Below, piece by piece: positions 1 to 64,000 of a DNA stretch of 64,000 nt; the stretch's first letter is position 1, and each line of letters starts with the position of its first letter. Origin of the DNA: Akanthomyces muscarius (lineage: Eukaryota > Ascomycota > Sordariomycetes > Hypocreales > Cordycipitaceae); assembly GCF_028009165.1 (NCBI RefSeq), contig NC_079243.1, forward strand, positions 1,054,001 through 1,118,000, written 5' to 3'. Made by a program: the position numbers and the translations under genes. The notes under the pieces were generated by a model. That model was given only the letters and a program-made list of their open reading frames with translations, was not told the origin of the DNA and searched no databases.

Positions 1-1487
1 AGTATAGTATAATATATATAGGGGGTTATTTATATATAATAGCTAAGAAGCTTATTACCTTTTTTATTACTCTATCTACTCTATACTAGTTATATTCTCT
101 ATTTTATAGTAGCTTTTTCATATAAGAATATACCTTTCTTAACTTACCTTTATCTTTTTATCTAGTAAATGTACTTGCCCCTATTTAGGGTAATCTCTTT
201 ACTAGTATAAAAAGCTTATATATTCTACCCCCTACTTTCCAAGTACTATTAATAAAGAAGTAAGCTTTACTTTATATAGATTTTTAGTACTAGTAAAAAT
301 TAGTTTCGCTTTTTTGTATTTAAAATAAAAAGTAATAGTAACACTAATAATTAGATTTTTATATTTAGCCTTTTAATAATTATATTTTTATTAAAAATAT
401 ATAATAAGTTTTAATTATTATTATATAAAGTTTTTTAGTTAATATACTCTAATATTTTTATTATTATATTTAGTTAATAGTTAGTTTATTATATCTTTTA
501 TATTTATATACTAAAAGGGAAGGCCTTATAAATCTAGTTAAAGAATATATTTTATTATAACTCTCTTTTTTAAATTAATAAGCTTTTTTAAATTAATAGT
601 ATAATTATATTATAAGTTTTAGTTATTATATTAGTATTAAATAGTTATTATAAAGATATTATAGATCTTTATTACTTTATAGATACTTAATTTAAGTAAT
701 TTTCTAATAGTAAATAAGATAAGAATTATATTACTTTCTATAAAAGTGTTTTCTATAAGTTATTATTAAGTAATTATAATATAAAGATAATAGTTAGTGT
801 TTTATAATAAAAGTATATTACTTACTTATTTATACTATTTACTTATTAACTATATTATATATTAAATATTAGTATAATAAAAGGCCTTTTTAAGTAACTA
901 ATTATAATCTTAAAGAATTAAGTTAATTTAGATTAAATTACTTTATATAGATTAAAGTTATATTTTATATATTATAATAGAGGCCTTAATAATAAGTTAT
1001 TATTATAGGTTAAAAGAGAATATTTAGGGGGGTAGTTTTTACTTATAAATATAAGACTTTATAATTAATTAATTATAGTATTTAAAAAATATATTATATT
1101 AAGGGAAAAAGGTTAAAAATCTACTATCTATTATAAAGTATTAAGCTTTTATAGTTATAATATAAGAATAATATAGTATATATATATTAAGTATATTATT
1201 TAGTATTATAATAATAAAATTTATATTAAATAAAAGTAAAAAGCATATTAATATAATTAATATAAAAAGTTATTTAAATAAATAAATTAATATAACTAAA
1301 AATAAATAATATATTTTTATTATAAAATATTAACTTATATTTATATATTATAATTATTTAATAATAATTTATAAAAGAGTACTTTTATAAAAAATAATAT
1401 AAGTTTTATTTTATTTATTATTAAAAGATTATTTAAATTAAATATATATAAAATAATAAAAGTTTATAATATTTTTATAATAATTAA

Positions 1488-2273
1488 TATAGTTAATAAG
1501 TGAGTAGTATAGATAAGTGAGTGGCGTGTCTTACCCCACTTATTCTCTAAAAGTAAAATAACTCTATAAGGATAAAGTTTAAATAGCTAATCTTTTTATT
1601 AAAGTATAATAAGGTATTAAACTCCTTATAGAAAAATAATATTAACTATAAATAAAATATATTCTATTTATATAATAGTTAATAATAACTAAGTTTAATT
1701 TTTTCTATAATTCTTTTTAAAAATTATATTTTTTAATTTAAAATAGTTAAAACTTTAAATTTATTAAAATAGGCTTTTATTAATAACTATTTACTTATAT
1801 ATAATTAAAAATAAAATATAATTAAAAGTTTTAATAAATTATTAAAGATATTTAAAATTTAAAGCTAATTTTTAGTCTTTTTTATTTAAGTTATTAAAAA
1901 GATTAACTATATTTATTTTAGAAGTTTTATAGTTAACTAGGTACTATAAATATACTATAAACTATAATTTAATCTCTTAGCTAATAAACTAAAAGAAATA
2001 TTAATTCTTAAAAGAATTTAAAAAAGAATTAAATCTACTAACTATTAAATTAGTTATTATAAATTTAGATAATTATATTAAATACTTTATCTCTATATAT
2101 AAGTAACTTAATAACTTAGGGTTATAATAGACTTATTAAAAGTATTAATAAATATAAAAAGTTTATAAATATAACTAATTTACTCTTATAATTATCTAGT
2201 TATTCTAGAAATAGAGAATAGGTAGGGCAAAACACGCTACTCACTTATCTACACCACTTATTTATTAACTATA
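1488..2273. mobile_element. Short decayed TIR element
   Basis: The left end begins TATAGTTAATAAGTGAGT and the right end, read on the minus strand, begins TATAGTTAATAAATAAGT. The two ends stay similar for about 45 bp, including the internal stretch GATAAGTGAGT, so this is a 0.79-kb element with terminal inverted repeats. The interior is A+T-rich with no open frame. The same terminal motif caps the longer elements in this window, so it looks like a short, non-autonomous or internally deleted member. Confidence 0.6.
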
Positions 2274-2305
2274 TTATTTAATACTAATATAATAATAATA
2301 TATAA

Positions 2306-4065
2306 TATAGTTAATAAGTAAGTCGCCTAAATAAGCAAGTTACCTACTCTACCTAGTTTTTAGTACCCTTTATTTTAGTACTTTTATTACTTAATAATAA
2401 TTTATAAAAATCCCTTTAAAAGAAGTAGGTATTATTTTTACCCTTTAAGCTTTTAAAAAAGACTTAAAACTAAGTTATAAAGAAGCTATATTAATCTATA
2501 ATATATTTTAAATAACTATTTATAACTAATATAATAACTAAATTATATAATATAACTTTATATTTAATTTAAAAAAACTTATTAATTTAAAAAAGAAAAT
2601 TATAATAAAATATATTCTCTAATTAAATTTATAAAGACTTCTTTTTTAGTATATAAATATAAAAGATATAGTAAATTAACTATTTATTAAGTATAATAGT
2701 AAATATATTAAAATATACTAAATAAAAAACCTTATATAATAATAATTAAAACTTATTATATATTTTTTATAAAGATATAATTATTAAAAAGCTAAATATA
2801 AAAATCTAACTATTATTTATAATTAGTTTATATTTTTAGAGAATATAATTATAAAATATAGTATTATAAAGTTTAATATTTATAACTTTAATAAGATTAG
2901 ATTTCTAATAGGCTTTATTATAATAAAAATAGTTATTATAAGTTCTAATTAGGTTAAAAAAGTAAAAGTAATATAGTTTAGTAATAAGAAATAAATTATT
3001 ATAATTTAAGTAGTAAATTTTTAAAGCTTAATAATACTATTATATATTATAGTAAAAAGCTAAAAATACCTTATATTTTAGTATAAAAATAAATACTTAC
3101 TTTTAGATTAGTATATTAATATAAGCTTAAATAACTAAATAATAAATAAAATTAGTATAAGTTAGATTAAGTATTTTAATAAATATATAAAAGATTAAAA
3201 AGAGGGTAATTATATTAAGGCACCTATAAGGTATATTAGTTAGTAAGAGGTTATAGGCAACTAGAGGTATTATATGCGAAGAAGCTACTATATAGCTGCG
3301 AGCTGCTAATAAGGGAGTAGTGAGGAGGCAGCGATAATTCCACTATTATTCTAAAAAACCTAAGGATTATCTAGTAACTAAAGCTCTTTACTAATAGCAC
3401 CTTATAAATTATTACTTTTTAATTTTAAATAACTATAAAAGTTACTACTTAACTACTTTTTAGCTTTTTTATTAAAAGAAGAATATTATTACTTTTTATA
3501 TACCTATATATTTTTCTTATATACTTTAACTTTTAGATATTAGTTATTTTAGTTTATTAAAAAAGGCTTATAGATAATAAATTAAGGATTTTATAATAAC
3601 TAATATTATATATATTATTAAAAAAGACTTTTTTTTATATTTTTTAATACTATTAATAAGTCTATTATAAAAAGAATATTTAAGGTAGTTTTTAAAGTAC
3701 TAAAATTACCCTTTTTAATCTTAAAAAGGTTATTTTTATTTTAAAACTTAAGTTTATAATACTAAGTCTTTTAAACTTATATTTAGAATTTATTAGATTT
3801 TAAGTCTTTTAAATATTAAGTATAGTAAATAAAGTAGTTTTATAGTTTTTAATTTTAAAAAAATAAATTATTAATTACCTAAATAACTTTTTAATTAAAA
3901 GTCTTAATATACTTAATAGTTTTAAGAAAAGTATAATAACTATTATATATAAAGTTATATTTTTATATATTTAAATATAAGGCCTTAAAATTATAAATAA
4001 GTTAATTAGTAAATATTAGTAAGCTAAAAAAATAAGACTATAAACTAAAAGATCTCTTTTTATAA
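2306..4065. mobile_element. Decayed TIR element, copy 1 (interrupted)
   Basis: It starts with the family end TAGTTAATAAGTAAGT and shares its body, in the same order, with copies at 4066, 24543 and 62307: a block near 2815-2942 is almost identical to blocks near 4610-4722, 25050-25182 and 62815-62942. Its right part is missing because the next copy begins at 4066, probably a nested insertion. It is interrupted at about 3216-3400 by a less A+T-rich insert. No coding frame survives. Confidence 0.6.
3216..3400. repeat. Small insertion inside decayed copy 1
   Basis: About 185 bp of more balanced composition sits inside the A+T-rich element and is absent from the same place in the other copies. 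It is bracketed by the imperfect direct repeats GCACCTATAAG and GCACCTTATAA, as a target duplication would be. It looks like a later insertion that escaped the mutation seen around it. Its class is unknown; no open frame of note. Confidence 0.4.
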
Positions 4066-5921
4066 TATAGTTAATAAGTAAGTAGTATAAATAAGTAAAT
4101 AATATACCTTTATTATAAAATACTAACTATTATCTTTATATTATAATTACTTAATAATAACTTATAGAAAATACTTTTATAAAAGGTAATATAATTCTTA
4201 CTTTATCTATTATTAAAGAATTATCTAAATTAAGTATCTATAAAATAGTTAAGATTTATAATATCCTTATAATAACTATTTAATACTAATATAATAACTA
4301 TTTAATACTAATATAATAGCTAAAACTTATAATATAATTATATTACTAATTTAAAAAAGCTTATTAATTTAAAAAAAAGAACTATAATAAAATATATTTT
4401 CTAACTAGATTTATAAGGCCTTCCTTTTTAGTATATAAATATAAAAAATATAATAAACTAACTATTAGTTAAATATAATAGTAAATATATTAAAGTATAC
4501 TAAATAAAAAACCTTATATAATAATAATTAAAACTTATTATATATTTTTAATAAAAATATAATTATTAAAAGACTAAATATAAAAATCTAACTATTATTT
4601 ATAATTAGTTTATACTTTTAAAGAATATAATTATAAAATATAATATTATAAAGTCTAATATTTATAATTTTAATAAGACTAGGTTTTTAATAGGCTTTAT
4701 TATAATAAGAATAGTTATTATAAGTTTAAATTAAGTTAAAAAAGTAAAAATAATATAGCTTAATAATAAAAAATAGGTTATTATAATTTAAATAGTAAAT
4801 TCTTAAAGCTTAATAATACTATTATATATTATAATAAAAGACTAAAAATACTTTATATTTTAATATAAAGATAAATACTTATTTTTAGATTAGTATATTA
4901 ATATAAGCTTAAATAGTTAAATAATAAATAAAATTAGTATAAATTAGATTAATTATTTTAATAAATATATAAAAGATTAAAAAAAGGGTAGTTATTACCT
5001 TTTAATTCTAAATAGCTATAAAAGTTACTATTTAACTACCTTTAAGCTTTTTTACTAAAAAAAGAATATTATTACCCTTTATATACTTATATATTCTTCT
5101 TATATACTCTAGTTTTTAGATATTAGCTATTTTAGTTTATTAAAAAAGACTTATAAATAATAAATTAAAAATCTTATAAAAGCTAGTATTATATATATTA
5201 CTAAAAAAGACTTTTTCTTTATATTTCTTAATACTTTTAATAAGTCTATTATAAAAGAAAATATTTAAAATAGTTTTTAAAATACTAAAATTACCTTTTT
5301 TAATCTTAAAAAGGTTATTTTTATTTTAAAACTTAAGTTTATAATATTAAATCTTTTAAACTTATCTTTAATATTAACTAAATTTTAGGTCTTTTAAATA
5401 CTAAATATAGTAAATAAAATAGTTTTATAGTCTTTAATTTTAAAAAAATAAATTATTAATTACTTAAATAGCTTTTTAACTAAAAGTCTTAATATACTTA
5501 ATAGTTTTAAAAAAGGTATAATAGTTATTATATATAAGATTATATTTTTATATATTTAAATATAAAGCCTTAAAGTTATAAATAAGTTAATTAGTAAGTA
5601 CTAATAGGCTAAAAAAATAAGACTATAAACTAAAAGATCTTTTTTTATATAAAATATAAAAGATTTAAAAAAATAAATAGATATAAATAATTAAATAAAG
5701 GATAAAATATAGACTTATAGTTATTATAAAATAAAGGTTAAAATATATAGTTAGTAATATAGTATATATAGTTAAACTAAATATAATATATATATTTATA
5801 TTATAAATATAGAAATTAGTAAAAAAGAGGATTTTAATTAGTTTTAGATATTTTCTAATAGTATAGTTAAATTATTTATAATTAAAGGTTAAAAGGTTAG
5901 TAAAGGTATACTACTTACTTA
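4066..5921. mobile_element. Decayed TIR element, copy 2
   Basis: The left end is TAGTTAATAAGTAAGTAGTA. The right end near 5905-5921 reads, on the minus strand, ATAAGTAAGTAGTATACC, matching the left end. The 1.86-kb body aligns by eye with copies 1, 3 and 4. It is A+T-rich throughout, no open frame remains, and it forms the border with normal-composition DNA. Confidence 0.6.
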
Positions 5922-6052
5922 TCCAAAGACGAAGAAGAGCCGTGTGTAGGTAGAGAGCGCGGTCCGGCGCGGGATGTCAGAATGTGGTCCGTGAAGAAGT
6001 CGGCGAAGCCAGTAAGCTGCAGCTTGGCAACGTCGACGCGGGGTATGAGGCG

Positions 6053-23792: not shown

Positions 23793-24015
23793 AATGGACA
23801 AGCGGAAAGTTACTCGCTCGTCAAGCACGGGTGGCCGGAATGTCAGAAATTTGCTAGGCAAAGATGTGTCGGTAAGTCGTGGACAAAAAAGAACAAATGA
23901 ACAAATGGACAAGCGTAAAGCTGCTCCCCGCCGGCAATGGGATGGTGCAGAAGGCCACACCAGTTGGTCAAGAGCTTGCTGGGCAAAAATGTGCCGAAGA
24001 GACGTAAACAAAAAG
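23793..24015. repeat. Imperfect duplication of about 110 bp
   Basis: Copies start at about 23793 and 23903, both with AATGGACAAGCG followed by a basic-looking stretch and later GCTNGGCAAA and GTGNCG. The duplication ends next to the A+T-rich border. Confidence 0.45.
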
Positions 24016-24097
24016 ACCAAAAGCAAACGTAGCGAAGCATAAAAGAACACAGATACTCAAATAGTCAAAGAAAGTATGAGTTGTTACACGATAAGAC

Positions 24098-26660
24098 TAC
24101 TTATTTATTAACTATATTAACTCTTTCTAAAAGTAATACTTTAATATTAGAGTATATAGAATATTTTTATAAATTAGTATATAACTTTATTTAATATTTA
24201 TATTCTTAGAACTATATTATTTAAATTAATTTTTTTAAATAAAAAAAATTAATTTAGTATTATATTATTAAATATATTTAAAAAGAAATCTAATAATTAA
24301 TAAATATTTTATTTATATTTTATTTACTAAAAAATATTTTATTTTATTATATTAAAAAAGGTTTTATTATAAATTATTTATAATTAATAATTATTAAACT
24401 TTTATTTAATAAATAAATAAGAATTTAAAATTAAATTTAATCTATTTTTTATAAATATATATTTTTATTTAATAAATATTTATTAAATTAAAAACCCTAT
24501 TAATAATAATTATTATTATTAAATTATTATTATATTTTTATTAATATAGTTAATAAGTAAGTCACTTAAATATATAAGTCACTTATTCTACCTAGTTTTT
24601 AATACCTTTTACCTTAATACTTTTACTATTTAATAATAATTTATAGAAATCTTTTTAAAAAGGTAGGTATTATTCTTATCTTTTAAGCCTTTAAAAAAGA
24701 CCTAAAACTAAATTATAAAGAAGCTATATTAATCTATAATATATTTTAAATAACTATTTATAACTAATATAATAACTAAGTTATATAATATAACTTAATA
24801 TTTAAGTTAAAAAAACTTACTAATTTAAAAAAAAGAGTTATAATAAAATATATTTTTTAGTTAAATTTATAAAGACTTCTTTTTTAGTATATAAATATAG
24901 AAAATATAATAAATTAACTACTTATTAAATATAATAGTAAATATATTAAAGTATATTAAATAAAAAACCTTTTATAATAATAATTAAAATTTATTATATA
25001 TTTTTAATAAAAATATAATTATTAAAAGGCTAAATATAAAGATCTAATTATTATTTCTAATTAGTTTATACTTTTAGAGAATATAATTATAAAATATAAT
25101 ATTATAAAATCTAATATTTATAACTTTAATAAGACTAGGTTTCTAATAGGCTTTATTATAATAATAATAGTTATTATAAGCTTTAATAAGGTTAGAAAAG
25201 TAAAAATAATATAATCTAATAATAAAAAATAGATTATTATAATTTAAATAGTAAATTCTTAAAGCTTAATAATATTATTATATATAATAATAAAAGACTA
25301 AAAAAACTTTATACCTTAATATAAAAATAAATATTTACTTTTAAATTAGTATATTAATATAAGTTTAAATAGTTAGATAATAAATAAAATTAGTATAAAT
25401 TAAATTAATTAAATATTTTAAAAAATATCTAAAAGATTAAAAAGAGAATAATTATTATCTTTTAATTTTAAATAGTTATAAAAGTTATTACTTAATTACC
25501 TTTAAACTTTTTTACTAAAAGAAAAATATTATTATCTTTTATATACTTATATATTCTTTTTATATATTTTAACTTTTAAATATTAGTTATTTTAGTTTAC
25601 TAAAAAAGACTTATAGGTAATAAATTAAAGATTTTATAAAAACTAATATTATATATATTATTAAAAAAGACTTCTTTTTTATATTTTTAATACTTTTAAT
25701 AAGTTTATTATAAAAGAAAATATTTAAGGTAGTTTTTAAGATATTAAAATTATTTTTTTTAATCTTAAAAAGGTTATTTTTACTTTTAAATTTAAGTTTA
25801 TAATACTAAGTCTTTTAAACTTATATTTAAAATTAGCTAGATTTTAAGTCTTTTAGATATTAAGTATAATAAATAAAGTAATTTTATAGTCTTTAATTTT
25901 AAAAAAATAAATTATTAATTATCTAAATAACTTTTTAATTAAAATCTTAATATACTTAATAGTTTTAAAAAAAGTATAATAATTATTATATATAAGATTA
26001 TATTTTTTTATATTTAAGTATAAAGTCTTAAAACTATAAATAAGCTAATTAGTAAGTACTAATAGGCTAAAAAAATAAAACTATAAACTAAAAGATCTCT
26101 TTTTATATAAAATATAAGAGATTTAAAAAAGTAAATAAATATAAATAGTTAAATAAAGAATAAAATATAAACTTATAGTTATTATAAAAAAAAGGTTAAA
26201 ATATATAGTTAGTAATATAGTATATATAGTTAGACTAATTATAATATATATACTTATATTATAAATATAAATATTAGTAAAAAAGAGAGTTTTAATTAAT
26301 TTTAGAAATTTCTTTATATTATAAATAAGTTATTAATAGTTAAAAAGTAAAAGGTTAAAAAATATAGATAACTTATTTATCTAAATAACTTACTTATTAA
26401 CTATATTATATATATTCTTTATATATTTTATATATATTTAAAATACTTATAATATATATTTACTATTTTTAGAAAATATAAAATATTAAACTTATAATAA
26501 GAGGTGGCTAGTTTTTAGATTTACTATATACTACCTAATTTAACAGTAATCTTATAAGCGTTCTATATCTCTAAGTCTATTATCTAAGTGTTTATACTAT
26601 TAAGAACCTAAAACTTTTTAGCTTAATTTTAGCGATATTTATTCTCACTTCTACTAGGAC
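24098..26660. other. Second A+T-rich, RIP-like block
   Basis: Composition drops sharply at about 24100, where a family end (CTTATTTATTAACTATA, the inverse of the usual left end) marks the right terminus of a decayed element. Composition recovers gradually after 26480. It contains copy 3 of the TIR family and unassigned A+T-rich DNA. No gene is visible. Confidence 0.8.
24543..26403. mobile_element. Decayed TIR element, copy 3 (full length)
   Basis: This is the best-defined copy. The left end TATAGTTAATAAGTAAGT at 24543 is matched by the right end, whose inverse is TATAGTTAATAAGTAAGT, ending at about 26403. The element is 1.86 kb. The inner body matches copies 2 and 4 in order and orientation. 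Heavy A+T enrichment leaves no open frame, so the transposase family, if there ever was one, cannot be read. Confidence 0.65.
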
Positions 26661-27146: not shown

Positions 27147-27159
27147 GCTCTGTCTGGTT
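27147..27159 (+). repeat. 13-bp flanking direct repeat, left
   Basis: GCTCTGTCTGGTT lies 8 bp outside the left inverted repeat and recurs at 34745-34757, 4 bp outside the right one. A 13-bp match in such a position is very unlikely by chance, so it is a candidate target duplication. Mutator elements usually make 8-11-bp duplications, so the exact boundary of the element is uncertain. Confidence 0.55.
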
Positions 27160-27167
27160 GGGGGACT

Positions 27168-27230
27168 AGCTCACTGGTGGTGGTCGTAAAGCTATTGAAG
27201 GTTCAGGTGGGGCAAAAAGGCAAAAAGCGG
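27168..27230 (+). repeat. Left terminal inverted repeat
   Basis: It begins AGCTCACTGGTGGTGGT and ends CAAAAAGCGG. It matches the inverse of 34686-34740 over its length except a few substitutions and an 8-bp doubling of GGCAAAAA in the left copy (63 versus 55 bp). Confidence 0.85.
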
Positions 27231-27507
27231 TGAGTCTTGACCGCATATGCAATGCATATGCAATAGACGTACTGTGCGCTTGTCGGAAAGCTCATCTGCA
27301 TACGCCATGCATATGCCGGCAGCCAGCTCTGCATATGCCCCCGGCCATAAATACGGTGTAGAAGAATTCTCATGCTATGGCGCAAAAGACGGTCAGAAAA
27401 TTGAGTGAAGAGATAACAAGGAGAAAAATAATAAAGCACATAAGCCTCGCATATGCCATACATATGCTATTATCACACACAACAAAAATCAACTTCAATA
27501 TTATTAC

Positions 27508-30500
27508 ATGATGTCATCACCAGAGTCAAGCGCGGTGAACCCTTGGGGGCAGCTGTTTCAGCATAATGAGGTAAGAATACCCTAATAAGGCTCTGGGCAT
27601 ATGCTAACAACATCAAGGACCTATTCGCCAACACTCTCGAAGACGATGACCCTACAAGCTTTTTTAATATCCCGAAAGAGATTATTGAAGAGTCTGGGCT
27701 TATGCTCAGTGGGCGCGGAGCGCGTGCTGTGAGCGTTCGCAAAGTGATTGATTGCATTGCTCTTCCAAGCTATCCAAAAGCATCGATGGATGGATTGGTA
27801 TATATTATACCAAATATATCCCCGACATATGCTGGCGATAAGGTTGAGGAAGTGACAAACTTTATATAAGAGCAAATGAGTATTGTAAGTAATACTGGGC
27901 ATATGCCAGTGCTATGCTCACTATCTACTAGGTACAGTTTGGTTCAACTCGGGTTGGCAAATGCACAACTGTTTCTCTGGTATTCTTGTGAGTAAATTCT
28001 TCAAGTGTGCAGATGCTGAGCATATACTGACTAGAGATAGGGAGCAGATGCTTGGAAAAGGAGCGCAGGCACAGTGCTGGCATATGGCCTTCAAATGCAC
28101 TGGAATACGAGTCTGCTCAAAAATCAAGCAAGATCTTATAACCTACCAAGACGACTGGAATAATGGTTTTAACCCAGAGAATATTGGCCGCATACGCCAA
28201 ACATATGCCACAAGTATTGATACCATGGAGATTGACGAACGCACACGAATGAAGACGGAAGCAGCATACCTGGCATATAAGAAGATATGGGATAGTTCAC
28301 GACGCCCTTGTCGGCTACTCCCTGTATCAGAAGACCCTGAGAGTCTACCAGGCATATGCTGCGAAGAGCAACTAATGACCTGGGTCCAGACTGACGGGCA
28401 GTACTTTATTGGCTGTCCACAAACATCGAATGAGGCCTGTCAGCACACACAGCTCCGAGTTGTTATTGGTAATATTGACCTAGCATATCTTCAGCATATG
28501 GTCGAGTATGGGTTACACGAGCCCGAGGAGCCTCTACGCGATACTTGCTCTTTTTGGGATGCCTCAAATACACGGAGAAAGGACTGTAGTAAGTGATAAG
28601 AATATATAGAATGTAGAGTGAGCATATGCTAATAATATATAGTATTTCAGCATAAGGATATATCCCGCCTACGTCCACACAGTTGCCGTGTTAAATTTAA
28701 CGTCTACATACCAATTAATAACCGCCGTTTCCCTTGGTATATGCTCAGCACACGCGACGTCCATACCCACGTTCCACCGCCACCAAAAAACATACCACAA
28801 GATATTCTTAAACATCTTATTTATGCCCTCTCTGAGCGAGATGATTTATTATATCTAACTGCTTGTAAGTATTATTCTATACTATTTAAAGCATATGCTA
28901 ATAACATACCCTATAGGGAAAATATTTTTAAGCCCTTTACTTAATGAATTCCTTAAAAAGTATAAGGCTAAGAATATTCGGAGCATCCACCCAGCATTGA
29001 ATTGTGAGGATAAAATACATGCAATACTTATACGTGCACGATTCCTTAAATACCCTGAGGGTAATGATATTGCAGGTAAGTGCTATTTAGAATGTTGTGG
29101 GCATATGCGCTAACCATGCTAGGTGTACAACGAGAATTCTGCCTTAACCAAATCCGTGAGCCAAACCAGCAATAGATACGTGAGATCAAATTCTACGGCT
29201 CTGAGTATTGGATCATCATATGCTCAAAAAGCCAGGCTTCTGCTGCTCAGAAGGCAAGATGTATACAAATTGATCTATCTTTTAAGATGATTCGAGGGAA
29301 AGCAAATATTCTTAGCATCTCAAGCTAGAATGACACTTCTAATCGTAAGCATATGCCCAGTCCAGATAATACCTATCTCTAACCTACATATCTAGTTCGC
29401 GAAACATATATTTATACTATAACAACAATCACAACTACAGAGGCATACACTAATATAAGTAAGTGCCCAGCATATACCCAGGACACTACTAATCTAAATA
29501 GATGTTCGCAGCAATGTTTCGGTGGCTTGGTGACATTGGTGGCTTTAGCATACGCTGGCACCATCTCGAGCATATGCCACACGGAAGACCTCCTCCTATG
29601 TTCTATACAGTGACGACAGATATAGATGGGAAGCAAGCACATAGTGAGCAGCTACACAGCATATACGGAGAATATAGCTAATATCATTAGGACTTGGCAA
29701 TTACTTACAAAGTCTTGATTCACGATAGACCTAGCAAGAACATTTAGAGCATGTGCTTATCTTCTGCCAGGTACATATCCAACGGAACTAGCGACATAAC
29801 CATCCTGATACTCCTGATGAGTATACATATATGTCGCTCCTAGACTCACCATCTGCTAAGATCTATAATGAGGAAGTACGTCAGCTTATTGAGGCACACC
29901 CTGAGAGAGCAAGTTGGTTTAAAGCAAAAACAGCTCCCTGGGTTATTGCTAGGCTTGTTGCAAGTGCCTCAAAGGTGCCTCCAAAATGGCGATTATATGC
30001 TCAGAAGAATACGAATATCGCAGAGAGTGGCCATTGGGAAGACTACTCTGCTGTAGGACAGCACCGCAGCCTACTATCAGGTATCCTAGGGCTACGTCAG
30101 CATGTGCTGGAGAAATGCTTCAAGGTCCAAACACAAACAGACCTAGGAGTAGCAGTAACATGGCATAATCGAGGGCCTGTTGCCCGCATAAGCCGAGCAT
30201 ATCTTCGACGAGATACTACTAATCGCATAGCGCAAGATCGACGTATCTCTCAGCCAAACCTACCCCTTAACCCACGGAATCCCTACCATGTTCGACCCGA
30301 AGGCTCAAGCCCTGCGTCAGCATATGCCTCCGATACACCAACAACTCCTGTCCCACAAAGATCCTTGCAACCCTCTGAGCCCCCGTCCTCAACAGGTTCT
30401 GGGCACATGCCGGCAATCTCTTCGTCACAACACACAATACAGGCCAACAACGTAGGCCTATATGATGCCGAGAATACACGTATAACACCACCTACTCCAT

Positions 30501-31234
30501 CACCACAAAATATACCACAAGAAGATGTGCAGACATTGGCGGAGCATATGCCTGCACAACAACCGGCATATCCGCAAATACAGGGGACAGGTACGCCCCG
30601 GCCCTCCTCGGCAGTCGGTAGGCATACGCCCAAAACCGATGGGGCATCAACTGCATTACTAGAGCCTCTCACAGCACCAGCACTAGTTAGGCATATGACT
30701 GTAATTGAGCTTAATAGCCTGTTAGATAGTGATCAGTTGGAAACAATCGATCTATCTACAGTCCCAGCCGCGGGCATATGCCAGGATGATGATCTATCAA
30801 TCATCAGTATAAGAGCTTTAACACCAAGCCGTATTAGACCAATTACTGATGCAGATTGTAAACCAGTAAGTAATAGACATAATATAGGCATATTCCCAGG
30901 ACTAACTTTCTCTAGGAACCAAAAACACCACAACAACAAAAACGGGATCGCTCTAGCTCATCAGCAACGTGCTCACTACCATCAATTTCTCAGATATCTC
31001 TACGACCAAAACGGCCCCGGCATATGCCAGAGATAGATCAATTTGATGATGCTGAGATTTCTGCACTTCTTCTACAGCAGAAGGTGGTCAGAGAGGAGTA
31101 TAAAGATCTTATTCAAGAGGATATTCAACATATAAAAGAAAAGTGTCAAAGACTCAGACAAGGTATATGCTTAAGAGAGTTTTAAAAGATACTTAACTAA
31201 TTTATATATAGGAAAGGAAAAAAGAATAAGCTAG
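27508..31234 (+). pseudogene. MULE-type transposase, five in-frame TAG codons
   Basis: Reconstructed from about 12 exons with introns at 27571-27617, 27885-27931, 28589-28642, 28865-28916, 29076-29122, 29345-29395, 29459-29511, 29644-29690, 30866-30915 and 31163-31211 (the junction between 27797 and 27868 is unresolved); about 980 residues. MULE hallmarks are in order: CIQIDLSFKMIRGKANI (first catalytic Asp), FYTVTTDIDGKQAH (second Asp), LIFCQVHIQRN (the C-x2-H motif) and KNTNIAESGHWEDYSA late. MULE transposases cut and paste elements using a DDE RNase-H-like core. The tail is Pro/Ser-rich and ends in a charged helix (QKVVREEYKDLIQEDIQHIK). TAG at 29173, 29326, 29726, 29732 and 29789 breaks it. 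All introns contain GCATATGC or a variant. The start at 27508 is the first ATG after the left end that splices in frame. Confidence 0.75.
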
Positions 31235-31288
31235 TTTTTTTTCGTTTTTTTACGCTAGATTGAAAATTAGATATTAAATAAGTATATG

Positions 31289-32305
31289 CTAGGAAAATGC
31301 TAAGTGGCTTACTTGTGATAACTTTTGTAAAGCCCGGGTAGTCTTTTTAGGTGAAGTAGTTGCGTAGCATATGCTCTGCGACTTATTAACTCTTATCACG
31401 GACTCTGTAGAGGTAATATCCTCAGGCATATGCTGACTGCTAGCTGTGTACATTCTGGCTGTGTCCTCAAGTGAGGAGTCTGTGTTAATTGTGGTGTCTG
31501 GTTGACCGTTGTCTGAGCATATGCTGGTTTGATCCCGCTCTGATCGTGTGGTTGTAGGATCTAATGTGGGAGAGACTGGCACACCGTGAGCATATGCACA
31601 CGGTGTGTTGAATGTATTTTCGAACAACATCTGTCGGAAACTTGAACGATGGAATTGTCTACCATATTTCTGTGCAAATGCTAGGTCTTGTTGGCTATAA
31701 GATTATTAGCATATGCGTATAATATGAATAGTAGATACCTACGCAAGATACTCAAGCTCAGTCGCTACCTTATATAAAAATGAGGTCTTTGGTAGGTTTT
31801 TTGGCTCACGCTGGTACCGAGCATCACGCCAACCGCCATTGAGAACCCAGGCGCGAATAGTACTACTAAGTGTAAGCATATGTCACGTCTATTCTAAAAG
31901 AATACTTACTTCTCTCCAATTAGGCGTTCTTCGTCTGATATATTCGCCTTATTTGGGAGGCGGATATGGTAGGGATGTGCTGTTCGAATGTGACGATAAA
32001 ACTAAAGTATTTGATAAGTATATCCCTAGCAAGCGCCTGGCATATGTTAGGCCACCTACATTCACATTCTCAGTATATACCCTTCCACACATTCTGCCAG
32101 TACTGTTGACAATAATATCACAAATGTGTGTGTTGACACGGGAGAGAATTTGTGTGTTTTTCTTCTCAACTGGTCCTAAAATAGAGTTAGCATATGCTGA
32201 TAAAGTGATATAAATATTCTGACCATGATGGAAGCCAAACTTTGATGGATTTGATGCATTTATCACATCAATATCTGTATACTCTAATAGAAGTTGTCGC
32301 GCCAT
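31289..32305 (-). CDS. MULE accessory protein 1, 265 residues, unknown family
   Basis: Five exons, 32305-32224, 32175-32081, 32001-31910, 31865-31743 and 31694-31289, join without a stop; total 798 nt. Introns are 48, 79, 44 and 48 nt. The N-terminal half is compact (NPSKFGFHHGPVEKKNTQI, THICDIIVNSTGRMCGR, then YRHIRTAHPYHIRLPNK), and the Cys pair followed by H-x4-H could bind zinc. The middle has RAWVLNGGWRDARYQREPKN. The last 110 residues are Ser/Thr-rich and likely disordered. Four GCATATGC copies fall in the last exon, read as AYA, IC, HM and IC. I do not recognise the family. It runs convergent to the transposase and ends 54 bp past its stop. Role unknown; DNA binding is inferred only from the possible finger and context. 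Confidence 0.65.
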
Positions 32306-32532
32306 CTTACAGGAATCTCAGTAGAAGATGTAAGGAGGAAGAGGGGTATATGCCTGATTAATTTCTATACTAGGCGGGACGGATTATTATTAATCCATAG
32401 CTTACGCATTTTTCCTCCGCATAGAAATATCTTTATAGTAAGCATAACTTATAGCGAGCATATGCTAGATTACGAAATAACCTAGTAAGTGTCCAGGGGC
32501 TGCCTGCCCGCTACTAGCCCGTATTATGTATT

Positions 32533-32612
32533 GGAATTTCAGCATATGCCGAAAAAACGACTGCCTGCCGGAGGCTGTATTGCGCTCTGGAATTTCAGCA
32601 TATGCCGAAAAA
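32533..32612. repeat. Tandem copy of a GCATATGC unit
   Basis: The stretch GGAATTTCAGCATATGCCG with following A run and GACTGCCTG occurs twice, 56 bp apart. It shows the motif being duplicated with its surroundings, in the intergenic space between the two minus-strand genes. Confidence 0.7.
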
Positions 32613-32918
32613 AAGTTGACTGCCTCGCCGCGCGGTCTGTAGGGTAGCCTGCCTGCCTTACGCTAGCTAGGCGCAGCTGGCAGCCTGTAGCCGTTTAAAT
32701 CTCTCGGCATATGCTCACAACATGCACATGAGGGACAGAAAAGATTGGGAAATGACTTTTTATTTTTCGGCATATGCCGAGGGTATCCTTCCGGTCTGCT
32801 TGCCGGGAACAAAAACATCGCCGCCTGCCTCTCAGCATATGCTGAGCACCCTCCTGAAATTCACGAAAACAACAAAGCAAAAAACTGTCCAAGTCCCGAG
32901 GAGAGGCTGGGCATATGC

Positions 32919-34283
32919 TCAGGCCTTGTTGGCGGCAGCCTTCTTGGAAGGCTGGGCCTGGCGCGTGGAGGTGCGCGTAGCAGCTATTGATTGTCAGAAT
33001 GCTGTCAGCATATGCTCGGCGTACTACTTACCAGGGGCGGCACCCTTGGTGCCCGTGGCCGCCTTGTTAAGGCGGCGCTTCTTCGACGGGGCTATTTGTC
33101 GAGGGTCAGCCTAGAACCTTGTGGGCATATGCTCAGATACTTACGGGGGGGGCCCTGGGAGGGGGAGGGGGAGCGGTCCGGGACAGCAGCCTATTACTCG
33201 TCAGCATATGCTCAGTACATGTTCGTAGTGATTAATACTTACACCGCGGCCGCGCTTGCGCGGGGTGGTCTGCGCCTAGAAAAAGTATTATTATCTTGAG
33301 TACTCGGCATATGCTCAGACTAAAACTTACAGCAGGCGGGGAGCGGTGGAAACGACCAGTCTTGTCGCCGGTCGCGGCGCGCCAGACGGGATCAGCGCGA
33401 CTAACATTAATCAGCATATGCTCAGCTTGTTCGCACAGGATTCTCTACTCACGCCTTGGCCTCCAGAAAATCCGCGATCTTCTGGATCGGGCCGCCAAGG
33501 GGACCGGCACTAGAGGTTGTTAGCTCAGCATATGCTCAGACGGTTTCTTTCACTTACCCGGGCTCGTCCAGGAAGGCGGCCCTCTTCCACTCCTGGGAGA
33601 GGACATACCAGAGGAGGGAGCTATCACGGGTCAGCATATGCTCAGCATCGGCCTGAAACTACTTACCGGCGGGCGGTGGCCTTGTCGGCGGTGGTCAAGT
33701 TGCGCCGACCGGAGGAAACGGCTACTGATGTCAGCATATGCTCAGAACTTACTTGGGCTTACTTACGGTCGAAGCCGTGCATCGTCTTGATGTGCTTCTT
33801 CATCTATTTTTTTTTGTTAGCCCGGCATATGCCCGGAAGATGCGCAACACTTACTTGGCCGGAGCCACCCAAGAAGGCAATCACGGTGCCACACATGACG
33901 CCAAGCTCGTTCTTGACGCCGCACCTTTTGAGAATTAGCTGGGCATATGCTTATGCTCAGTATTACTTACACCATGGTGTTGACCTTGGCGATCTGAATC
34001 GAGCCTAAGAAAATTGGTCAGCATATGCCTGGAATCGGTTGACAGGGAGCTTACGGAGGGGGGGGGTGGTGGCCTTCGATGCCCATGTCGCCTAGAAAAA
34101 AATTAGTATGTGGGCTTTGAGCATATGCTCAACCCGTGCTTACCGCAGTGGATGCCAAGGGCTGTCTCGCTGGGTGCCCCAACGCAGTTGACCAGCTCCT
34201 GGTCAGTGAAAGTTGCTGGGCATATGCTCAGTACATGTTCAAGTTATTGTACCACACAAAAACTTACTTCCGAAAGAATCCAT
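32919..34283 (-). CDS. MULE accessory protein 2, 14 mini-exons, basic DNA-binding-like
   Basis: Exons (minus): 34283-34268, 34215-34144, 34091-34055, 34004-33971, 33924-33855, 33803-33767, 33721-33667, 33620-33558, 33509-33453, 33400-33331, 33275-33243, 33190-33145, 33091-33032, 32983-32919. Thirteen introns of 45-55 nt all have GTAAG or similar donors and TAG-like acceptors. Reading phase agrees at 12 of 13 junctions; the exception needs one base fewer in a run of nine C in exon 3, giving about 237 residues. Seen: CGVKNELGVMC then MKKHIKTMHG (a possible zinc finger with H-x4-H), a helical middle (LLWYVLSQEWKRAAFLDEP, IQKIADFLEAKA) and a basic tail with the AT-hook-like TPRKRGRG and PSKKRRLNK. 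A nuclear DNA-binding role is likely; the family is not recognised. Every intron carries one GCATATGC, no exon does. An upstream noncoding exon may exist near 34340-34385. Confidence 0.65.
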
Positions 34284-34685
34284 CTGCATTCGTTAGCATA
34301 TGCTGAGTGTACTCTAGGAACAGGGGTAAACTTACCTTTGATGATGGCGGGGGGGCGCGCGCAGTTGTTGTATATCTACTACCTGTCTAGTCAGCATATG
34401 CTGGGTGCTTGCTTCGGGGGCAGGGCCTGCATACAGAATTTGATGATGATGAAGAAGAGAGAAAGGAGAAGAGGAGCAGGATCTAGGCATATGAGTTAAT
34501 TGTTCCTAAGCACTGGCCAGGGCACGTGAGGTATCTCAAAGGAAGTGAATTCATTGTGATCTTTTTCATTGTCTATTGCTCAGATCAACTTCAGATCAGA
34601 GTAACAAAGAGGCATATACTAATTTGAGTGAAAAGGCGGGTACCTTGCATATGCAGAGCATCTGCAGCAGAGAATCATTTTTCTG

Positions 34686-34740
34686 CCGCTTTTTGCCCCA
34701 CCCTAGCCTCCAATAGCTTCGCCACCACCACCAGTGAGCT
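34686..34740 (-). repeat. Right terminal inverted repeat
   Basis: Inverse of the left terminal repeat: read on the minus strand it begins AGCTCACTGGTGGTGGT and ends GGGGCAAAAAGCGG. 55 bp. Confidence 0.85.
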
Positions 34741-34744
34741 TAGT

Positions 34745-34757
34745 GCTCTGTCTGGTT
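34745..34757 (+). repeat. 13-bp flanking direct repeat, right
   Basis: GCTCTGTCTGGTT, identical to 27147-27159 on the other side of the transposon. Confidence 0.55.
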
Positions 34758-61599: not shown

Positions 61600-64000
61600 A
61601 TTTAAATAGAAGCTTAGTGTCCCTAAGTTAATATTAATACTAGACTCTATTAGATTATTATTATTATGAATCTACCTTTTTTAAAATTAAAGAAAATTAT
61701 ACTTATTAAGACTTTAAATTATTTTTAATATTTTTTAAAATATAATAAATTAAAATACTAATAGTTTATTATAAATAAAACTATTAAAGGAAGATATATT
61801 TTTATAATTAAAGTTTATATATATATTATTAAATTAAAATAAATAAAATAAAGAAATAAACTTAGAAATTAAATAGTATATTAAATTAAAGATTAGAAAT
61901 TAATTATATTTAAAATAATTAATAAAGAAAATATAAATAAGTAAATATATATTTTTATTAATTTATTAATTTTAAATTATTAAATTTAATTATAATATTA
62001 AAAAATATTTAAAACTAATTAAAATACTTTTTTTTTAGTTTTTATATTTATAATATAAATATATATATTAAATATAATTTAATTATATATATTATATTAT
62101 TAATTATATATTTTAATATTTATTTTATAATAATTATAAGTTTATATTTTATTTTTATTTAAGTATTTATATTTATTTATTTTTTAAATATTTTTAATTT
62201 TATATAAAAAAAAGCTTTTTTAACTTATATTTAAAAAGAATTATATTTATTAATATTTATTAATTAATTGACTTATAATTTTAAAACTTTATATTTAAAT
62301 ATAATATAGTTAATAAGTAAGCAGTATAGATAAGTAAGTGGCGCACCTCTACTATAAAATACTAACTATTATCTTTATATTATAATTACTTAATAATAAC
62401 TTATAGAAAACACTTTTATAAAAGGTAATATAATTCTTATCTTATCTACTATTAAAAAATCACTTAAATTAAGTATCTATAAAGTAATAAAGATCTATAA
62501 TATCCCTATAATAACTATCTAATACTAATATAATAGCTAAAACTTATAATATAATTATACTACTAATTTAAAGAAGCTTATTAATTTAAAAAAGAGAGCT
62601 ATAATAAAATATATTCTCTAATTAGATTTATAAGGCCTTCCCTTTTAGTATATAAATATAAAAGATATAGTAAACTAACTACTAGCTAAATATAGTAATA
62701 AATATATTAGAGTATACTAAGTAAAAAACCTTATATAATAATAACTAAAGCTTATTATATATTTTTAATAGAGATATAATTATTAAAGGGTTAAATATAA
62801 AAATCTAATTATTATTTATAGTTAGTTTATACTTTTAAAGAATATAATTATAAAATATAATATTATAAAGTCTAATATTTATAACTTTAATAAGACTAGG
62901 TTTTTAATAGGATTTATTATAATAGGAATAGTTATTATAAGCTTTAATTAAGTTAGAAAAGTAAAAGTAATATAGTTTAGTAATAAGGAATAAGTTATTA
63001 TAATTTAAGTAGTAAATTCCTAAAGCTTAATAATATTACTATATATTATAGTAAAAAGCTAAAAACACCTTATACCTTAATATAAAAATAAACGCCTACT
63101 TTTAAATTAATATATTAATATAAGCTTAAATAGTTAAATAATAAATAAAATTAGTATAGATTAGATTAAGTATTTTAATAAATATATAAAAGATTAAAAA
63201 GAGGGTAATTATTACCTCTTAATTCTAAATAGCTATAAAAGTTACTACTTAACTGCTTTTAAGCTTTTCTACTAAAAAAAGAACATTATTACCCTTTATA
63301 TACCTATATATTCTTCTTATATACTCTAGCTTTTAGATATTAGCTATTTTAGTCTATTAAAAAAGGCTTATAAGTAATAAATTAAAAATCTTATAAAAGC
63401 TAGTATTATATATATTCCTAAAAAAGACTTCTTTTTTATATTTTTTAATACTTTTAATAAGTCTATTCTAAAAGAAAATATCTAAGGTGGTTTTTAAGGC
63501 GCTAGAATTACCCCTTTTAATCCTAAAAAGGTTATTTCTACCTTAAAACTTAAGTTTATAATACTAAGTCCTCTAAACTTATATCTAAAATTAGTTAGAT
63601 CTTAGGTCTTTTAGATACTAAATATAGTAAATAAAGTAGTTTTATAGTCTTTAATTCTAAAAGAATAAATTACTAATTACCTAAATAGCTCTCTAACTAA
63701 AAGTCTTAATATACTTAATAGTTTTAAAAAAGGTATAATAGCTATTATATATAAGGTTATATTTATATCTATTTAGGTATAAGGCCTTAAAGCTATAAAT
63801 AAGCTAATTAGTAAGTACTAGTAGACTAAAAAAATAAAGCTATAAACTAAAAGATCTCTTTCTATATAAGATATAAGAGATTTAAAAGAGTAGATAGATA
63901 TAAATAGTTAAGTAAAGGATAAAATATAGGCTTATAGTTATTATAAAGTAAGGGTTAAAATATATAATTAGTAATATAGTATATATAGTTAGACTAGATA
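61600..64000. other. Third A+T-rich, RIP-like block
   Basis: Composition collapses to A+T within about 60 bp after 61590. No gene is visible. It continues past the window end and contains copy 4 of the TIR family. Confidence 0.8.
62307..64000. mobile_element. Decayed TIR element, copy 4 (truncated by window end)
   Basis: Left end TATAGTTAATAAGTAAGCAG, then a body that matches copies 2 and 3 in the same order. It keeps more G and C than they do (for example ACCTTATACC and GGTGGTTTTTAAGGCGC), so it is a less mutated member and the best template for reconstructing the family. The right end is outside the window. Confidence 0.6.

Follow-up and report, generated by a model that had tools for sequence, protein, structure and literature searches.

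Self-marking by transposons, and their activity against host silencing, are known in detail for few elements. We analyzed a stretch of 64,000 nucleotides (hereafter the window) from the fungus Akanthomyces muscarius (Cordycipitaceae; contig NC_079243.1, positions 1,054,001 to 1,118,000), which contains a transposon with a transposase gene (A) and two accessory genes (B and C), along which the palindromic 8-mer GCATATGC recurs. The window holds 46 exact copies of this word, all within positions 27243 to 34654, and none in the remaining 56,393 bp outside the element, as an earlier note on the same DNA had reported. That note had also described a transposon resembling Mutator-like elements (MULEs) with an element-wide array, a description with which the terminal inverted repeats and the 9-bp target site duplications agree. 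The features of the locus are given below in window positions.

27151..27159, left target site duplication, 9 bp, TGTCTGGTT, from copy comparison
27160..34748, whole transposon, 7,589 bp, ends common to six full-length copies, 46 exact and 35 one-mismatch sites
27168..27219, plus strand, 52-nt left arm of the terminal inverted repeats, matching the right arm with 87% complementarity
27243..27456, left subterminal cluster, 5 exact palindromes
27508..31185, plus strand, transposase gene A from spliced-frame search, 10 predicted introns, 1,062 amino acids in copies L007 and L008, 12 exact palindromes
31313..32305, minus strand, accessory gene B from spliced-frame search and a weak Pfam match, predicted C2H2-like protein of about 281 amino acids, 3′ end uncertain
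32318..32918, spacer between B and C, 7 exact palindromes, 56-109 bp apart
32458..34401, regular zone, 22 exact palindromes, mean spacing 92.2 bp, coefficient of variation (CV) 0.20
32919..34397, minus strand, accessory gene C, 15 exons, 14 introns, 240 amino acids, public annotation LMH87_011223
34647..34654, right subterminal palindrome
34689..34740, minus strand, right terminal inverted repeat, 52 nt
34749..34757, right target site duplication, 9 bp, TGTCTGGTT, from copy comparison

A count of all 8-mers, which the earlier note had proposed as a check, places GCATATGC first in the window. The chance expectation of about 0.1 given in that note proved too low, since 100 whole-window dinucleotide shuffles contained a mean of 1.96 and a maximum of 8 copies, though the excess is real. 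One-mismatch forms of the word are also overrepresented: the element contains 35, or 34 when the exact copies are cut out, compared with 4.3 ± 2.1 (maximum 11) in 300 shuffles, an approximately 8-fold excess. Across the 36.19-Mb genome, GCATATGC occurs 831 times, with 227 copies in five element copies spared by repeat-induced point mutation (RIP), one in locus L011 and 603 elsewhere. Similar density elsewhere in the genome, the outcome that the earlier note had set against its own proposal, was not seen; the 603 copies fall below the approximately 1,025 estimated by a Markov model built from the window outside the element, and the word is not enriched in the genome outside the element. The reversed word, which has another CpG content, occurs 224 times in the genome, fewer than these 603. 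Pairs of GCATATGC lying 66-96 bases apart number 77 genome-wide, against none for the reversed control word, and among the spaced pairs listed, two fall outside the copies of the element, both of them on C3. The confinement of the array to this element is claimed for the A. muscarius genome. On either side of the word, the flanks show a weak preference (at most 0.52 bit) for Y at +1 and for A at +3.

The sites are also evenly placed. The regular spacing of about 90 bp that had been noticed between 32458 and 34394 is borne out by the 22 sites of this zone, whose CV of 0.20 lies below the lowest value among 20,000 random placements (0.44). When exact and one-mismatch sites are taken together over the element, the 81 sites have a mean spacing of 92.7 bp, or about one per 93 bp, with a CV of 0.57 compared with 0.99 ± 0.10 for random placement, a value reached by none of 20,000 trials. 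To the left of the regular zone, 54 such sites show a mean of 96.3 bp and a CV of 0.64, compared with 0.98 ± 0.13. Mean spacing is about equal to the left, where the element is mostly coding, and to the right, where it is mostly noncoding, and imperfect sites are more numerous in the coding part. Helical phasing in the regular zone gave one weak peak (10.8 bp, power 3.05). Nucleosome phasing, which the earlier note had listed among the possible roles, may be involved; a beat of 92 bp is about half a usual nucleosome repeat.

By compartment, 21 of the 46 exact sites lie in introns (14 in C, 6 in A, 1 in B), 11 in exons (6 in A, 5 in B), one over a start codon, and 13 in the spacer and the subterminal regions, of which five are at the left end and one at the right. 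Gene C contains exactly one exact palindrome in each of its 14 introns, and its exons are free of the word save for the copy over the start codon (34394-34401). Introns make up 51% of this gene, giving a chance of 8e-5 that 14 of 14 sites would be intronic and a further 6e-6 that each intron would receive one. The regular beat of about 92 bp therefore follows the exon-intron beat of gene C, continuing through the spacer between B and C. In gene A, which like B was modeled by a spliced-frame search blind to the palindrome, six of the 12 exact sites lie in the 13% of the gene that is intron (p 0.0025), and the remaining four of its ten introns carry one-mismatch forms. The three B introns that match C introns contain ACATATGC, ACATATGC and GCATATGC, respectively, ACATATGC being a one-mismatch form. 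The exonic sites occur in all three reading frames, which indicates that the constraint acts on DNA.

The boundaries of the element were established by searching the genome with the stretch between the terminal inverted repeats, which returned six full-length copies (L005-L010), a 270-bp end fragment (99%) and a 92-bp end-like match (79%). The six copies have exact ends in common, 8 bp outside the 52-nt arms, and each is flanked by a perfect 9-bp target duplication, all six of which differ; from these exact ends and duplications we infer that the element moves as a Mutator-like DNA transposon. The duplication length falls within the range of 8-11 bp described for MULEs (PMC6446971), and the terminal inverted repeats are likewise as expected for most families of the group; the element thus appears MULE-like by its ends and target duplication, and the MULE profile does not confirm it. 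Two pairs of copies are identical (L005 with L006, the window copy, and L008 with L009), and their separate target sites point to recent movement. The L008/L009 pair is without 56 bp (window 32532-32587) and thereby without one palindrome.

At positions where L007-L009 are alike, 25 substitutions distinguish the window copy, of which 21 are G>A following T, 3 are C>T and 1 is A>G; two single-base length differences come in addition. The window copy carries light RIP-like damage. Transposase stop codons are common to L005 and L006 despite their different target duplications, so it seems that this copy, already lightly damaged by RIP, was then mobilized in trans. L010, also full-length, retains no GCATATGC and has undergone 745 C>T as well as 595 G>A changes; of these 1,340 RIP-type changes, 894 fall at CpA/TpG and the majority of the others at CpG, and strong RIP has therefore acted in the lineage of A. 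muscarius. The window also has AT-rich blocks of about 11-20% GC (1-6000, 24001-26000 and 62001-64000) beside DNA of about 50% GC, as would be expected of isochores made by RIP. The proposal in the earlier note that variants of the palindrome fill gaps in a decayed transposase gene holds for the gap filling and fails for the decay: none of the 25 substitutions falls in an exact or variant site, so that the variants are not decay of the window copy. For the exact sites, about 1.4 substitutions were expected (25 x 22/403), and this count is uninformative on protection from RIP.

The reading frame of gene A is open in L007 and L008 (L009 being the same as L008) and interrupted by stop codons in the window copy. 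Its 1,062-residue product had no Pfam match, and a genome scan with the MULE profile PF10551 at an E-value of 10 found four other loci and did not match it. These four loci (L056, L057, L058 and L059), one of which has stop codons, contain no GCATATGC within the 3.2-3.3 kb examined at each. The blocks IDLSFKM, DMDG and FCQVH..RN are invariant in all three aligned transposases, A and the two relatives P0002 and P0003; we take them to resemble the MULE transposase signature (DDE with a CxxH block). Two exonic sites of A lie within insertions absent from both relatives. No relative of the transposase was found in viral contigs.

Genes B and C are homologous (30% identity over 126 amino acids, E 5e-12), and all three B introns lie at the same residue and in the same phase as introns of C; judged by this comparison the two are paralogs. 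C has at least three introns beyond those of B in the shared domain, and its many-exon model is supported, as far as annotation can, by the public record LMH87_011223 of A. muscarius. In the window copy, exon 4 is frameshifted by an additional base within a homopolymer. A protein search with C returned its own annotated copy alone among 217 candidates. PDB sequence searches gave nothing below E 0.3 (B matched a Tramtrack finger at E 0.59), NCBIfam gave no match of weight, and Rfam gave no match.

Relatives of the transposase without the array were the second outcome that the earlier note had set against its proposal, and the proteins of the two relatives examined both agree with an array. A search with transposase residues 340-760 identified P0002 (40% identity) and P0003 (38%) among 3,054 candidates. 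Because GCATATGC in coding DNA gives AYA, [CGRS]IC or xHM[HLPQR], compatible peptides were counted in these proteins: P0002 contains 9 against 0.62 expected and P0003 contains 8 against 0.69. By this count GCATATGC ranks first among the 256 palindromic 8-mers in both relatives, and among all 65,536 8-mers it ranks second in P0002 and first in P0003. A itself has 8 compatible peptides, corresponding to 6 exact and 2 one-mismatch sites, and none of these 8 coincides within 2 alignment columns with a peptide of either relative; P0002 and P0003 have 3 peptide positions in common. Judged by their protein sequences, the two distant relatives thus seem to have this word too, but at different positions, and a word kept while its positions turn over is what characterizes a binding site under selection for density. 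The single palindrome in each C intron, the excess of one-mismatch forms and their evenness when taken with the exact sites, the exonic sites and the signal in the relatives are new here.

A strand-neutral word of similar density in coding and noncoding DNA, whose positions turn over and which is concentrated in a single family of elements, agrees with sites through which a dimeric DNA-binding protein must cover the element, and the two paralogous finger-like proteins encoded by the element are candidate binders. Among the roles listed in the earlier note, a binding site for an element protein is accordingly the likeliest, by inference from site density, evenness and the relatives, and GCATATGC is probably bound by such a protein in some form. 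More specifically, by analogy with the VANC proteins of Arabidopsis VANDAL elements, we assign a probability of about one in two to GCATATGC being the recognition site for the element's own protein, most likely B and/or C, which would coat the element. B and/or C would act as dimers on the palindrome, and selection would retain about one site per 93 bp along the element wherever coding allows, in introns and spacers as well as in loops and in the loose C-terminal tail of the transposase. The protein bound along the length of the element would mark it off from host DNA and, as VANC does for VANDAL elements, could keep the chromatin open and the element genes expressed, with a presumed effect on silencing. 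The dense cluster at the left end may additionally aid transposition.

Several observations weigh against this binding and coating of the element by its own protein. Over the full length of the element, the exact sites by themselves are spaced no more evenly than random placement would give (CV 0.84, p 0.15). The match of B to Pfam zf-C2H2 is weak (E 0.0081, below the curated cut-off), a Pfam search matched C to no protein family, and two structure predictions were of low confidence (predicted local distance difference test scores of 40.7 and 33.2). The relatives were tested on protein letters alone, and they are 56% identical to each other; since the peptides of A include one-mismatch sites, some of those in the relatives may not be exact. 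Finally, the array did not spare L010 from RIP.

The coating of the element by B and/or C must be weighed against other accounts of the array. An element protein could bind the sites for transposition itself, in synapsis or by allowing the transposase or a helper to recognize a long element, with no role in chromatin. Many transposases and helpers bind arrays close to element ends, five exact sites are crowded into the left subterminal 200 bp, and two identical copy pairs at different target sites attest recent movement. The sites nevertheless spread through all 7.6 kb, the middle included, and the last 250 bp at the right end, where end recognition would want sites, contain a single exact one; this account is considered unlikely. 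A little less likely still is a host factor, or an element protein acting as activator or repressor, for which the array would serve as a distributed enhancer or copy-number sensor. The published consensus of EBNA1, a viral protein that is dimeric, contains this 8-bp core (PMC2964674); EBNA1 relies on clusters of sites for its roles in replication, transcription and tethering, and seven sites of the present array lie in the spacer upstream of B. However, the rest of the genome lacks the enrichment that a much-used host site might show, and the even density of the word across coding exons exceeds the needs of an enhancer.

Splicing would account for the intronic sites if the palindrome were an intron signal that gives or flanks the branch point (GCATATGCTAAC, GCATATGCTGAC). 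Every C intron and six of ten A introns contain the exact word, and a branch-like CTRAY overlaps its right end in several introns; yet 25 of the 46 sites lie outside introns, anything between 4 and 37 nt separates the word from the 3′ splice site, the branch-like motif lies elsewhere in several introns, and compatible peptides are abundant in the coding sequence of the relatives. Splicing alone is rejected as a full account by the non-intronic sites, and we regard this explanation as very improbable. Slightly less credible again is introner-type gain, in which one word-bearing intron multiplied within the element. Fungal introner-like elements exist (PMC4457414), and the 15 tiny exons of C and its surplus of introns over B would suit such an origin. 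The C introns show some similarity within 5 bp of the word (4.19 vs 3.71; 3.67 vs 3.30), but are dissimilar beyond that distance (left, 3.34 vs 3.28 ± 0.11; right, 3.27 vs 3.16 ± 0.12), which disfavors this origin; the word also lacks a genome-wide excess, and sites in exons and spacers would be left unexplained. The weakest proposal, a self-mark shielding the element from RIP that the earlier note had also listed, could draw on the survival of five near-identical copies in a heavily RIPed genome, but it is rejected for L010, where CpA/TpG positions are mutated more often in the sites (88/92) than elsewhere (806/966, p 0.0008), the palindromes themselves contain CpA/TpG, the window copy is lightly RIP-damaged too, and the survival of copies may merely reflect rare sex or recent arrival.

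Taken further, coating by B and C may amount to a fungal counterpart of the VANC system that arose independently, a tentative suggestion in which the paired accessory proteins would demand one palindrome per approximately 93 bp. It is conceivable, with the same reservation, that this demand dictates amino acids of the transposase and favors the structure of 15 tiny exons, which would make room for sites, and that the word perhaps outlives its positions over deep divergence. If true, this would be a rare case of a DNA-binding need visibly shaping protein sequence and intron structure. The system also offers a simple, testable code, with a single 8-mer and two candidate proteins, and with five copies that are nearly identical beside a RIPed copy as control.

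Literature on GCATATGC, fungal MULEs, anti-silencing and intron-rich transposons, covered through titles and the starts of abstracts, yielded no published account of such an array, which is no proof of absence; MULEs are not mentioned in the available portion of a paper on TET/JBP transposons (PMC12730594). Viral contigs and prokaryote genomes were also searched for three GCATATGC sites separated by two gaps of 68-98 bases, which gave 15 and 51 matching stretches, respectively, or 66 loci with at most 15 sites. The sites were read at two of these loci: L074 looks like a coding repeat, and L124 (5118-5892), in a metagenome-assembled genome of Thermomicrobiaceae, is an ordinary CRISPR-like array whose repeat contains GCATATGC. 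The other loci, among the best 30 of the 66 and judged by spacings and flank counts, are mostly regular repeats.

Among known systems, the fungal introner-like elements resemble gene C in their unusual intron numbers with a common sequence feature (PMC4457414, PMC9860276), but introners are similar introns in many genes, whereas here the likeness is limited to the 8-mer with a few bases beside it, within one element. The family of repeats of Epstein-Barr virus, like this array, consists of palindromic sites for one element protein, EBNA1 (PMC2964674); unlike it, those sites belong to a viral episome and are clustered in its origin, and the common 8-bp core is likely a coincidence that implies no relation. 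Mutyl of Yarrowia lipolytica is, as the passages at hand describe it, an ascomycete Mutator-like element with target duplications of 9-10 bp and a second open reading frame, mutB, with a DNA-binding role and a C2H2 label, to which the present element is likened by description (PMC6446971, PMC9865632). It differs in having one accessory reading frame, which the table of the paper gives as antisense and its introduction as in the same orientation, and those passages mention no palindrome array.

The VANDAL elements of Arabidopsis are, by analogy, the nearest precedent for an element-wide motif array. They are Mutator-like, encode a transposase and two accessory proteins and, in the published descriptions available, contain many copies of one short motif, each VANDAL family having its own word (PMC5735166, PMC10398659); B and C are likened to VANC by such descriptions. 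The motifs of VANC form tandem repeats outside coding sequence and vary from one VANC family to another (PMC5735166, PMC10398659). The element described here, in contrast, has a palindromic word and no tandem repeats, places 11 exact sites in exons, and seemingly keeps the same word in distant relatives.

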